Source: Akkermansia muciniphila (GTDB taxonomy: Bacteria; Verrucomicrobiota; Verrucomicrobiia; Verrucomicrobiales; Akkermansiaceae). Taken from it: DNA of 64,000 bases. A program made the position numbers and the translations under genes. How positions within the stretch are numbered: position 1 is the first letter of the stretch; each line of letters starts with the position of its first letter. The stretch is from assembly GCF_002884975.1 (NCBI RefSeq), contig NZ_PJKB01000001.1, positions 1,319,028 through 1,383,027 on the forward strand. The letters are read 5' to 3'. Positions 59,506-64,000 of this stretch are shown one piece after another. The notes below the pieces were generated by a model. It saw nothing but the letters and a program-made list of their open reading frames with translations. It ran no database searches and had not been told where the DNA came from.

Positions 59506-60288
59506 TTAACTGAATCTCCCCGTAATGTAATCCTCCGTTTCCTTCATGGAGGGATTGGAAAAAACTTTCTCCGTGGAATCAAACTCCACCAGCCTGCCCA
59601 GCATGAAAAATCCGGTCAGGTCTGAAACGCGCGTAGCCTGCTGCATGTTGTGGGTGACCACGATGATGGTGAAATCCTCCTTGAGCCGGTGCATCAGTTC
59701 CTCCACCCGCACCGTGGCGATGGGGTCCAGGGCGGAACAGGGTTCATCCATCAGCAAAATGCGCGGCTTCACGGCAATGGAGCGGGCAATGCACAGGCGC
59801 TGCTGCTGGCCGCCGGAAAGGCCGTTGGCGGAGGCATGGAGGCGGTCCTTCACTTCATCCCATAAAGCGGCATGGCGCAGGCTTTCCTCCACCGCTTCAT
59901 CCAGAAGGCCGCGGTTTTTCACCCCGGCCAGCTTCAACCCGTAGGAAACGTTCTCATAAATGCTCAACGGGAAGGGATTGGACTTCTGGAACACCATGCC
60001 CACTTCCCGCCGCAGATGAATGGGGTCCAGAGTAGGAGAAGTCACGTCCACCCCGTCAATGCGGATGGAGCCGCCCGTGACGCGGGCCTCCGGAATACGG
60101 TCGTTCATCCGGTTGATGCAGCGCAGCAGCGTGGACTTTCCGCAGCCGGAAGGGCCAATAAACGCCGTCACCCGGTTCCTCGGAATTCTCATGGTGACAT
60201 TGAACAGGGACTGCTTGTCCCCATAACAAAAATCCAGGGAATCCACTTCTACGGCGGTCTGATCGGCTGCTGCTGGGTGCGGGGTCAT
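59506..60288 (-). CDS. pstB: Phosphate ABC transporter ATP-binding protein
   Basis: 260 aa. Energises phosphate import by PstSCA. Walker [22 protein letters not shown]-loop [21 protein letters not shown], signature [17 protein letters not shown], Walker [14 protein letters not shown] and the His switch [15 protein letters not shown]. The SNPFP stretch is typical of PstB. The left arm of the 60.4-61.6 kb invertible segment lies about 125 bases upstream, so transcription leaving that segment leftwards would enter this gene. Confidence 0.96.
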
Positions 60289-60403
60289 CTTCGTTCAAAA
60301 GCGCATCTTGCGCCGTTACCCGCATGGTATCCCAAATTCGCCCCTCCGTGGCTACTACGAGTTTGTGACAATTTCTTAAGGTGGCTTTTTGAGAAAAAGA
60401 AAA

Positions 60404-61372
60404 TCATGCAGCGGATTTAGAATCCGTCAGCAGACTGGAAGAAACCAGGGAAATGTCATGGTAGACTTCCCCCAAGTCTTTTAGCCGGCCGTTTTTACTG
60501 TTGGCCAGGATGGCGTCAAAAGAAATGAGTTTTCTGACGGCGGACATGTCGTTTCCGGAGCCTGAGGCCATCACGGAAGAAAGGTTGAGGGGTTCCAGAT
60601 CGGGGCCGGGCGTGTCCCATGTAGAACGCAGTATCGTCAGGGCATCCGTGCTTTCTTCCGAGGCGTGCGGCATCAGGTTGATGCGCGCCTTCTGGTTTTC
60701 TCCCGTTACCCACCAGGCAATGTACTTGCGCATGTTGGCGTTCTTTTTCAGCCCCATGGCCTTGGAGTAGTCATCCACGCGCACCAGGCGGGCGTAGATT
60801 TCCTTATTGTCCTGGTTCTTGGCGCCTACGGGCGTTCCCACCGTGCCATGATTCACCAGGGGGATACTACGGAGGTTCTGATTGGTCAGAGAACGCTTGC
60901 CCAGCAGGTTCTTTCCGGCTTCCAGGGAACTGAGCCTGCGCAGGTCAGGGTCGGAAATGAGCCAGCGGCGGAACATGGCCTTTCTTCCCGTATCATAGGT
61001 GGAAGCAATGGTGGTGCCCTGGGAGCTGGTTTTGTTGAGCCAGGTATCCCAGCTGTTCCAGACGCCCAGGATGTATGGCGCGCTTCCTTCGCTGGTTCCG
61101 GAGGAAAGGATGCCGGAGTTGGCGGAAACGCGCTGGTCCGGTCCCAGTTCGCACTGGAGCTGGCCCAGGGCCACTTCCAGGGAAAACCTGGCGAGGGATT
61201 TGGCCTCCGCTGCAAAAAGATGTTTTTCAGAGAGTCTGGTCTGGGAGGAGGCAATGGTCAGAAGGCCAACGCTGAGGAGGGCCAGGAGCATCATCAGCGT
61301 GATGGTGGCAATCAGGGCAAAACCCTTGCTCATATGCCTGGGTCCTGGATTTTGTGGAATTGTCCTTTTCAT
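60404..61372 (-). CDS. N-terminal part of a prepilin-like surface protein (Verru_Chthon cassette protein A-like), cut by inversion
   Basis: 322 aa. A prepilin-type leader and helix (SKGFALIATITLMMLLALLS; cleavage would be after Gly) is followed by a pseudopilin-like region and a soluble domain (YIAWWVTGENQKARINLMPH). The ORF reads on through VSSSLLTDSK and then gains only SAA before TGA. The family would continue with a GGLKKDL-type segment, and exactly that is found in frame on the opposite strand after the right inverted repeat (61591 on). So this is a 5' gene portion inside an invertible segment, currently pointing towards pstB. Start at 61372; Met 14 is possible. Confidence 0.85.
   Translation of the reverse strand: MKRTIPQNPGPRHMSKGFALIATITLMMLLALLSVGLLTIASSQTRLSEKHLFAAEAKSLARFSLEVALGQLQCELGPDQRVSANSGILSSGTSEGSAPYILGVWNSWDTWLNKTSSQGTTIASTYDTGRKAMFRRWLISDPDLRRLSSLEAGKNLLGKRSLTNQNLRSIPLVNHGTVGTPVGAKNQDNKEIYARLVRVDDYSKAMGLKKNANMRKYIAWWVTGENQKARINLMPHASEESTDALTILRSTWDTPGPDLEPLNLSSVMASGSGNDMSAVRKLISFDAILANSKNGRLKDLGEVYHDISLVSSSLLTDSKSAA
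60415..60427 (+). repeat. Left arm of the inverted repeat
   Basis: ATTTAGAATCCGT, the exact reverse complement of 61591-61603. With two further outer bases after one mismatch the arms match at 15 of 16 positions (CGRATTTAGAATCCGT). It lies inside the coding frame of the N-terminal ORF. Confidence 0.9.
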
Positions 61373-61590
61373 TGAAATTTTATCTAAAAATTATTGGAAT
61401 TTATTAAAAGTGAGAGATGTAAAGCCGTTGCCAAGAGGTTGTCTGGCATGTCGTACCAACATACAAAATAGTTTTTTCCCGGCAAGAAAAATAGTTCTCA
61501 TTTTGCAAGTAAAAATGTATGTCAAAAAAGAAAAGACCAAGCGTGTTTCCGCGATCACCCGCATTTAATTCAGTAGTCAATTAAAAATTA
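61373..61590. promoter_or_regulatory. Leader/promoter region inside the invertible segment
   Basis: AT-rich, 218 bases, no gene. On the minus strand a TTGACA hexamer lies in a T-rich context about 150 bases before the ATG at 61372, but the -10 partner is poor. In the plus direction the frame of the C-terminal part is closed by TAA at 61582-61584, so the downstream body has no start here. Confidence 0.4.
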
Positions 61591-61603
61591 ACGGATTCTA
61601 AAT
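61591..61603 (+). repeat. Right arm of the inverted repeat
   Basis: ACGGATTCTAAAT, reading T-D-S-K in the frame of the C-terminal part, identical to the codons for TDSK at the end of the N-terminal ORF on the other strand. Confidence 0.9.
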
Positions 61604-64000
61604 TCGGTGGATTGAAGAAGGACTTGAACATCATGTTCTCCCAGGAAAAACTGCCTGAAGACTTCCGGGGAGACAACGCGGATATCGGCCTGCGCCCGTA
61701 CACGTCGGAAGACGGAAGCCCGACCGAGCAGAACCGCCCGATCGGCTCCTGGAACCAGCTCTACCTGTGGGCCAACGTGTGGGATTCCTCCTCCAAGAAA
61801 GATGGGCAGGACGCTTCCGCGGCATTGCAGTGGGACGGCCGCACGCCAAGCACGCTGGTAGCGGCTGACGCCGCGGCAAACATGGAAATGATGGACAACC
61901 GCTACACGTACATGCGCCACCCCATCCTGCTGCGCTTCTATTCCTTCGTAGGGTTGAACTACGTCAAACGCGAGGCCCAGCACGGAGCCCGCGGCGGCCA
62001 TATTGACGTGCGCGTTTCCGTAATCCCGGTATATGTGTGGTGGAACCCGTACAACGTGGACATGAAATTCCAGGGAGCGGAAGGCGGCCCCTGGGGTTCC
62101 TTCTTCGGGGAACACCGGTACATGCCGCTCATGCAGACCAATAATTATGGCCTCATGCAAGGCAACCTGGTTCAAAACTGGGATCCCTCTACGGCCACCT
62201 ATTCAGAATCACCCTTCTCCCCCTACTCCCCCAATGACGGCTATAACAACCGCCAGGTGGCCGACTTCGGGGCCTCCTTCCGGAAAACGTCGCAACTCAC
62301 GTCGGGAGGTGCAGGAAAAGCCGGCGAGGTATCCACGCTCAAGGCAGGCGAAATTGTCATTTACGCCCATCCCGTCGTCTCGAAAATCGAACACGGCAAC
62401 ATGGTCACGCAGTCCAAGGCAAACAAGAATGACGTGCGCGTAGACAACTTTGCTTTCAAGGAAGGCTGGGACCAGAGCCCCGGACAAGTCAGCTCCTACG
62501 CCATCAACCAGGCTGACGGCATTCAGTACCAGTACCTTGCCGGAAGCGGATATGAAGACAGGGGCACGGCCATGATGTCCATCAAATTTGCCGAAACCCT
62601 GAACGACCTTAATTATACTCCCCGCAACGTCGTTCTCTGCACCAAATACACGGACGAATTCAATGCCAGTTCCAACAAACTCGGCTCTATCGTCATGGTT
62701 TCCGGCATCATGGATCCCAAACAAATCGGCAAGGCCGGGGATTTAACCGCCAAGACGGGAGCAGACTTGAATGTTTTCTCCAAAGCCATGCCCTCTATCC
62801 TGAACCTCAACTGGGGCGCGTGGGAAAAGCCCCTGCTTGACCAGGTCAAGCTGCCTGCGGACATGTTCCTGGACAACGAAGGACCGGACGACAACCTGAA
62901 ACGCCGCGGCAAATACGGCAGTGCGGCCCAGGACTCCACATTCGTGGCCTACTACGGCGTATCAATCAAATGGGGCAAGCCGCCCGTGATCGGAGCCTAC
63001 CCGGAGGGCAAGGACTACCGCGCCAAGACTTGGCAGCACTCCAGCCCCCTTTTCTGGGGGAGCCAGATGCCCACCGCCTCCGAGCTCGGCCGCCTCTACA
63101 GCCCCTACCAGTTTGAAGTCAAAAACGCCAACAGCGACTTCTTCCCCATCACCATCTCCAACATCCTCTCCAACGACGGCACCAGGCTCTCCCCCTTCGG
63201 CGGACCGGGCGCTGAGCAGGTCAACAAGATCGTGGCCGCAGAACTCCCCTTCCAGCAGCCCTCCAGCCTCGCGGGCTTTGCCGGATGCCGCCTCACCCCG
63301 GGATGGTACAAGACCGACTCCAAGGCGGCCATCGCCAAGCGCTTCGCCTACCAGTCCGGCGTTCCCGGCGTGGGGATTGGCAACGCCTTTGCCGACCCCA
63401 TGCTCCCCGCCGACAAGGTCTTCTCCCACAATGAAATCATGGGGGACGCCTCCCTGGGCGACTTCTGGGACCACGGCCTGATGATTAACGACGCCCTCTG
63501 GGACTCCTGGTTCGCCTCCTCCCTGGCTTCGCGCCCCTCCAGCATCGGCGGCACGGGCAAGGAGGAACTTAAGACCGTCCTGAAGGAAGCCTTCTCCACG
63601 GACGCTTCCACCAACAAGGCCGCGGGCATCGCCAACAGGCGCTTCGTCCCGGACCTCCAGGGCAAGCCCGCCGAAGCCGTCATCGACGAACTTTCCAAAA
63701 CCGACGAGGGCTACAAGCAGGCCGGCAAGTACCTCACCGTGGCCGGAGGCTTCAACGTCAACTCCACCTCCCAGCGGGCCTGGGAAGCCACGCTTCTCGG
63801 GCTTAAAAAGAGAAAGCTCCTCTACTCCAGGAGCGGGATGCCCTCCGTGCTCAGCAACAGCCAGGCAGCCTTCTCCCGCTTCGGGGTGGCCAGCAGCGAC
63901 AAGTCCCACGTGGACGACTACGGCTCGGTGGGGGTGACCCAGGGCATCCCGGACGGGGAGGCCATGGCGTGGTCCGACCTGAGAACGCTCAGCGACTCGC
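61591..64000 (+). CDS. Headless C-terminal body of the prepilin-like surface protein, running off the right edge
   Basis: The frame is open without a stop from 61585 to base 64000 (over 800 codons) and has strong high-GC codon bias, but no start context: a TAA lies just upstream and the first ATG is internal (61633). It opens TDSKFGGLKKDLNIMFSQEK and continues through VIPVYVWWNPYNVDM, FFPITISNILSNDGTRL and GGFNVNSTSQRAWEATLLGL, the last typical of Verru_Chthon cassette protein A-type proteins. The N-terminal 319 residues lie inverted at 60404-61372. In the present orientation it should be silent. Confidence 0.85.

Follow-up and report, generated by a model that had tools for sequence, protein, structure and literature searches.

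The final kilobases of a 64,000-nucleotide (nt) stretch of the Akkermansia muciniphila genome, hereafter the window (C1:1319028-1383027 of the source genome G000, which comprises 2,902,150 bases in 7 contigs), hold a giant prepilin-like gene in two pieces on opposite strands. Its start, the N-part, is a minus-strand open reading frame (ORF; 60404-61372) whose end reads SSLLTDSK-SAA-stop. The remainder, the C-part, is a plus-strand frame open from position 61585 (KLTDSKFGGLKKDLN...) to base 64000, with a stop codon immediately before it. The perfect 13-bp inverted repeat at which a first-pass annotation, made from the sequence alone, had placed the break is present at 60415-60427 and 61591-61603, and widens to 22 nt at 86% identity (60406-60427 and 61591-61612). 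The 13-bp repeats are the cores of two sites of the type CGGATT-NNN-AATCCG, which lie 1,180 bp apart and are in frame in both halves of the gene (Table 1).

The first-pass annotation proposed that inversion of the intervening segment would assemble one seamless gene, and a scripted flip of 60418-61600 does produce a single frame of 1,124 codons, 1,118 of them from the ATG, still open at 64000. The objection that the joint might be an assembly error is unlikely to hold, as it lies in unbroken sequence and gaps begin only at 64001. Further copies of the site had been proposed as worth seeking. The 13-mer is more frequent than chance would have it, with three occurrences in the whole genome (two copies in the window, one on contig C6; none for the reversed control), and the C6 copy marks the corresponding joint in a sister gene.

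Table 1. Features of the split gene and its surroundings (window coordinates; aa, amino acids)
Feature	Position	Strand	Remarks
N-part, prepilin-like start of the giant gene, split orientation	60404..61372	-	322 aa: 319 codons to TDSK, then SAA and stop
Lone site of locus A, CGGATT-TAG-AATCCG-T	60412..60427	+	about 120 bp upstream of pstB
Partner site, CGAATT-TAG-AATCCG-T	61591..61606	-	in frame (TDSKF), at start of C-part
Predicted invertible segment, 3-nt spacer to 3-nt spacer	60418..61600		in-silico inversion; opposite orientation in relatives
Upstream region travelling with N-part, presumed promoter	61373..61590	-	conserved within locus A of relatives
C-part, disconnected here, runs beyond window	61603..64000	+	986 aa in G009
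Variable stretch of C-part	61903..62938	+	matching stretch in a relative's model is a confident beta-rich region
Start of conserved 3' part of C-part	63022..64000	+	near-identical among C-parts of one genome
pstB, neighbour marking locus A	59506..60288	-	TIGR00972, 386.2 bits against cut-off 343.2; synteny

Sites of this type correspond to the inverton motif that Jiang et al. 2019 described for Akkermansia, as quoted in PMC13343947, and to group 138 of PMC11892184. The class CGNATTNNNAATNCG is found at 82 places in the source genome, against 2 for a control. Neighbouring sites were paired over 50 of these places and over 16 places in each of five relatives. Among the 50 places there are 22 neighbour pairs no more than 2.5 kb apart, of which 21 are inverted with the same spacer, none is direct and one is unmatched; in the five relatives 27 of 28 neighbour pairs have matched inverted spacers and again none is direct. 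The window pair likewise carries the motif at both ends, inverted and with one spacer. That spacer, TAG, is present at only four places in the source genome, namely the window pair and a pair on C6, and in one or two additional pairs or single sites in the five relatives searched. Because the site arms are palindromic, the 3-nt spacer would be the region where strands are exchanged and would give the site its direction. The window pair differs in length from the other matched pairs of the source genome: 20 of the 21 span 148-328 bp, whereas here the distance is 1,180 bp and the segment carries 319 codons. Several genomes also have pairs of sites whose spacers do not match and which are separated by about 2,005 bp (for example G005:C1:890705/892710, G006:C1:906529/908534, G007:C2:83083/85088 and G008:C1:108010/110015).

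The named relatives that carry the gene are Akkermansia, the closest N-part being that of A. muciniphila CSUN-56 (99% over residues 1-78). In the relatives compared, locus A, to which the window belongs, lies beside pstB-phoU and has one C-part and a lone site; the flanking genes are named by NCBIfam, with the PhoU score under its cut-off. Its orientation in eight genomes is split in two (the source genome and G009) and joining in six. The joint itself is visible, and fused, in five (G004, G010, G001, G012 and G044); in G008 the N-part is aimed the joining way and the contig ends inside it. The lone site is recognisable in the same place in six of the eight. The split state recurs in G009, which is assembled as a single contig of 3,055,113 bases. 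Both forms exist as database proteins: the split P0001 (362 aa, 94 members) and the joined P0025 (1,305 aa, 220 members) are identical at 311 of 316 N-part residues, and ORFs consisting of a C-part only are represented by P0040, P0043, P0045 and P0049 (205, 328, 40 and 498 members, respectively). As the segment is found in either orientation among relatives, flipping likely joins the gene start to the remainder or cuts the start off. The phase switch put forward by the first-pass annotation thus gains support from the recurrent split in G009, from both protein forms in the database and from the fused gene in relatives, present at locus A of five genomes and at locus B of eight (C6 here and seven relatives).

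Locus B lies beside a sodium/solute symporter gene and pyrG, without pst genes alongside, and has a C-part on both sides of the N-part in 8 of 8 genomes. On contig C6 (4,160 bp) an N-part with 92% nt identity to that of the window is fused in frame to a C-part still open after 807 aa, where the contig ends, and a second C-part on the other side faces away; each C-part has its own site. The N-part faces the symporter in four genomes (G009, G005, G006, G012) and the opposite side in two (G004, G001), and its direction is undecidable in two (G000, G007). In G009, locus A is at about 1.71 Mb and locus B at about 0.24 Mb. With the N-part standing between two different outward-facing C-parts, a flip at locus B would exchange the beta-rich variable domain. 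A simple ON/OFF switch, as originally suggested, accordingly fits locus A, which is split or joined in relatives, but not the second locus, where endings would be exchanged instead. In G006 (L051) and G001 (L053), the variable regions of both outward C-parts of locus B are 100% identical, so that a flip there would change nothing.

The C-parts themselves appear to be in use. Between G000 and G009, both split, the nonsynonymous and synonymous divergences (dN and dS) are 0.014 and 0.290, a ratio of 0.05, and the ratio is 0.03-0.09 in 8 of 8 pairs examined. Such values indicate purifying selection; a broken gene would look otherwise. Across 23 C-parts from 10 genomes, about 100 conserved residues are followed by a variable region of about 350-370 and then by a conserved remainder. 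Variable regions within a genome share 54-64% nt identity in 15 of 18 pairs and 100% in three (both B arms of G001, both B arms of G006, and the A arm and one B arm of G012), while the 3' part is 99.0-100% identical in 16 within-genome pairs against a mean of 89.2% in 174 between-genome pairs. Variable types 1, 3, 4 and 5 are found at both loci, in the same or different genomes. With database proteins added, clustering 37 sequences at a 30% distance cut yields seven ending types (4 of the 23 cassettes, without an end motif, were dropped, and database proteins were used only if both motifs were present). N-parts at A and B are 92-98% identical within a genome (5 genomes), about as alike as, or more alike than, N-parts of the same locus between species. 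The near-identical 3' ends within genomes and the occurrence of types at both loci argue for gene conversion or crossing-over through the common ends, and homologous recombination of this kind may move C-parts between the loci. Locus A of G004 (L048) bears the far flank found at locus B elsewhere; a chromosomal exchange between the loci in this genome was considered, a misjoin being equally likely since its locus B is cut off by the end of a contig.

A short positive leader, G-F and a long hydrophobic N-terminal helix make up the type IV pilin motif. The N-terminus of the N-part, KGFALIATITLMMLLALLSVGLL, has all of these elements. The suggested comparison with TIGR02600 (Verru_Chthon cassette protein A) gave only a weak N-terminal match, with 21.7 bits against a cut-off of 332.3 over residues 17-73 only. 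The minor pseudopilin profile GspK (NF037980) likewise stays below its curated threshold (13.4 bits against 130, E 0.042), and both matches are confined to N-terminal residues 16-76. A model of the relative P0046 (1,139 aa, 79 sequences; mean predicted local distance difference test score 68.5) places a helix at residues 17-76 and shows, for the most part with confidence, a beta-rich region at about 421-770, which coincides with the variable stretch; fold searches with this model gave no usable match. The machinery of a type IV pilus or of type II secretion would display the joined product, whose binding may be decided by the beta-rich variable domain. PilQ, according to PMC4960237, exceeds all other outer-membrane proteins of A. 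muciniphila in abundance.

How such a site came to lie within a coding sequence may be read from its codons. In fused, switchless relatives (three copies in G057 and one in G011), TDSKFGGLKKD is encoded as ACGGACTCCAAGTTCGG and ACCGACTCAAAATTTGG, in which synonymous changes disrupt the site arms; two other G011 copies have SDVK and TDNK. The switch-bearing genomes use ACGGATTCTAAATTCGG, with TCC for Ser (spacer TGG) in G001 and G012. Since the same peptide exists in codons that break the arms, the junction peptide is most likely older than the recombination site, which codon choice would have created.

The search for an invertase that the first-pass annotation called for yielded a tyrosine recombinase candidate, and in the source genome no serine recombinase match. 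Profile PF00589 has nine matches in this genome, none within the window, and the 365-aa tyrosine recombinase at G000:C1:895107-896195 is the proposed enzyme. Counted over 65 of the 76 genus genomes, perfect sites number 36-88 in 13 genomes and 0-11 in the other 52; orthologues of the 365-aa protein (at least 90% identity) are found in 12 of the 13 site-rich genomes and in none of the 52 site-poor ones, and its best match in the 64 genomes without it is 46%. Were a single enzyme to be named, it would most likely be this one, and we regard the chances of that assignment as evenly balanced. Recombinase neighbourhoods were inspected in 14 chosen regions, with G003 picked because its sites had already been seen. 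Nine paralogues were examined: a motif pair lies no more than about 220 bp upstream in four (G045, G003, G012 and G005, one G005 arm with 1 mismatch), a variant pair in one, another repeat in one and none in three. At L158, L161, L163 and L165 a same-motif inverton stands just upstream of the paralogue's own gene, as if it switched itself. A 337-aa tyrosine recombinase (L079) was dismissed as the shared invertase, since just 6 of the 13 site-rich genomes have an orthologue of at least 80%. Serine recombinases were rejected likewise, PF00239 matches being absent in 9 of the 13, the source genome among them. Of the 11 serine recombinase matches in the 13 site-rich genomes, 6 belong to G045, whose 88 perfect sites are the highest count among 244 genomes.

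We conclude, with a probability of roughly 0.8, that the 1.18-kb segment of 319 codons and upstream region lies between inverted inverton sites and is flipped by a tyrosine recombinase, which would connect the gene start with the other two thirds or detach it from them. While split, locus A would yield only the 322-aa stub and its C-part would be silent; at locus B a flip would swap endings. A two-locus cassette system describes the finding better than one broken gene. In its full form, which we favour with some reserve, the system would be a three-cassette shuffler: a pilin-like head, moving together with its control region, would flip against tails that stay in place, giving a tail or a stub at A and either of two tails at B. 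Gene conversion would keep the 3' ends identical, and through these ends the two loci, some 1.5 Mb from each other, would trade tails; the site would occupy synonymous codons of a pre-switch peptide, TDSKF, and the common 3-nt spacer would serve as the address of both loci.

Several observations weigh against a segment that flips in this way. The first-pass annotation credited the segment with its own promoter, and this was not confirmed: a sigma-70-type scan of 60250-61700 returned 0 promoter-like sites (0.8 expected by chance), although alignment shows the region upstream of the N-part to be conserved among locus-A relatives. The lone site is unrecognisable in two of the eight locus-A genomes, G012 and G044. 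The joint reads TDYK in the split P0001 and TDCK in P0002, so some strains have spacers unlike the TDSK joint and are possibly locked. The opposite orientations are known from comparison between genomes only, and an excerpt of PMC13055324, a 1,000-generation study of MucT, reports high genome stability and does not mention an inversion. The identical B arms of G001 and G006 could be due to gene conversion or to an assembly effect. As for the candidate enzyme, none of five orthologues examined has a motif pair within about 19 kb; site-rich G045 lacks a 365-aa orthologue, having instead a 45% homologue with motif sites 32 bp upstream; the 12 recombinase-bearing genomes may simply be one clade sharing the gene by common descent; and XerC/XerD-like proteins, present in 13 of 13 site-rich genomes, are possible enzymes too.

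An old inversion could have broken the gene in the source lineage, leaving locus A a pseudogene or locked OFF and a working gene in relatives only. Such an event would suit a split seen in two of eight locus-A genomes and the other spacer at the joint of some database split forms, but it sits poorly with intact, matched site arms and spacers, with the low dN/dS of the disconnected C-part between both split genomes and with the 220 member sequences of a joined protein bearing the same N-part, and we consider it unlikely. Still less probable is an assembly artefact, in which the orientation would be a consensus error from repeats. The scaffold does join locus-A and locus-B flanks and is broken at 64001 and three further places within 1.7 kb, each break falling where C-part 3' ends are near-identical; the joint, however, lies in unbroken sequence, the same split is present in single-contig G009, and P0001, the split protein, is represented by 94 member sequences, the longest contig among them reaching 422 kb. 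Equally remote is the idea that the flip at locus A serves mainly to point a promoter towards pstB-phoU while the gene is split, the gene break being a side effect. The split-state N-part and pstB do run in the same direction, 115 bp apart, and a scan for a terminator-like site between them found none, but locus B has the same arrangement with C-parts on both sides and no pst genes, and the C-part, though disconnected, is conserved. Between lone site and pstB, too, the sequence is conserved in 6 of 6 locus-A genomes aligned (those of the eight whose lone site is recognisable), as if pstB were controlled from a region of its own.

Set beside known systems, the proposed head-flipping arrangement resembles the shufflon of IncI plasmids, where the C-termini of PilV are switched by the Rci recombinase. 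Both involve inversion inside an ORF and alternative C-terminal parts of a pilus-type protein, which at locus B stand next to the in-ORF site in 8 of 8 genomes, and both are hard to assemble. Here, however, the sites enclose the N-part, so that the N-part and its upstream region move while the C-parts stay fixed, with one segment at each of two loci; nor is there a recombinase beside the array, as judged by PF00589 in the window. In Moraxella, a single inversion similarly selects one of two pilin versions, but the invertible segment holds the alternative ends, whereas here it holds the common start. The intragenic and partly intergenic invertons of Chanin et al. 2024 reportedly overlap coding sequence and alter the product, as this segment would judging by its sequence, their definition being based on reads; the present case differs in having two loci, at least seven ending types and a probable exchange of endings between loci. 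The shufflon is the subject of PMC5430464 and PMC9045228, and PMC11868660 and PMC5903667 cite the Moraxella inversion. Phase-variable type I restriction HsdS, inverton group 145 in PMC11892184, also gains another specificity domain by coding-sequence inversion, in a different protein class and site family. The Akkermansia invertons themselves share motif, inverted pairs and matched spacers; PMC13343947 reports flipping and capsule switching for the cps1 inverton, and PMC11892184 describes A. muciniphila invertons as about evenly intergenic and gene-intersecting. The site family and the principle are known, and the combination is new. A search of titles and abstract starts found no paper on this locus, which the tables of PMC11892184 may include.

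If this reading is correct, isogenic cells of a much studied gut-mucus dweller would carry different variable domains on a very large surface protein, and adhesion assays, strain comparisons and probiotic batches would be heterogeneous. The locus would also be a clear example of codon choice creating a recombination site within a conserved coding sequence. It would supply a candidate invertase that can be tested for an inverton family found across the genus, and a spacer-matching rule, likewise open to test, for which sites recombine together.

The surroundings of the locus merit a few further remarks. From window position 64001 (L004:6529-11901) there are five single-N joints, and the scaffold beyond this point is likely misassembled where the 3' ends of the C-parts are near-identical: what follows locus A is a symporter-pyrG piece whose proper place is at locus B, and the far flank that relatives show at locus A is on contig C4. 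That far flank (L052 and L054) bears a second pstB-like gene, 63-64% identical, as if locus A were placed within a phosphate-transport region. On the other side, window positions 60289-60411 contain a stretch conserved in the six genomes aligned, AGGTTAAGAAATTGTCACAA (ACCTTAAG... here), which we take to resemble a phosphate-control box.

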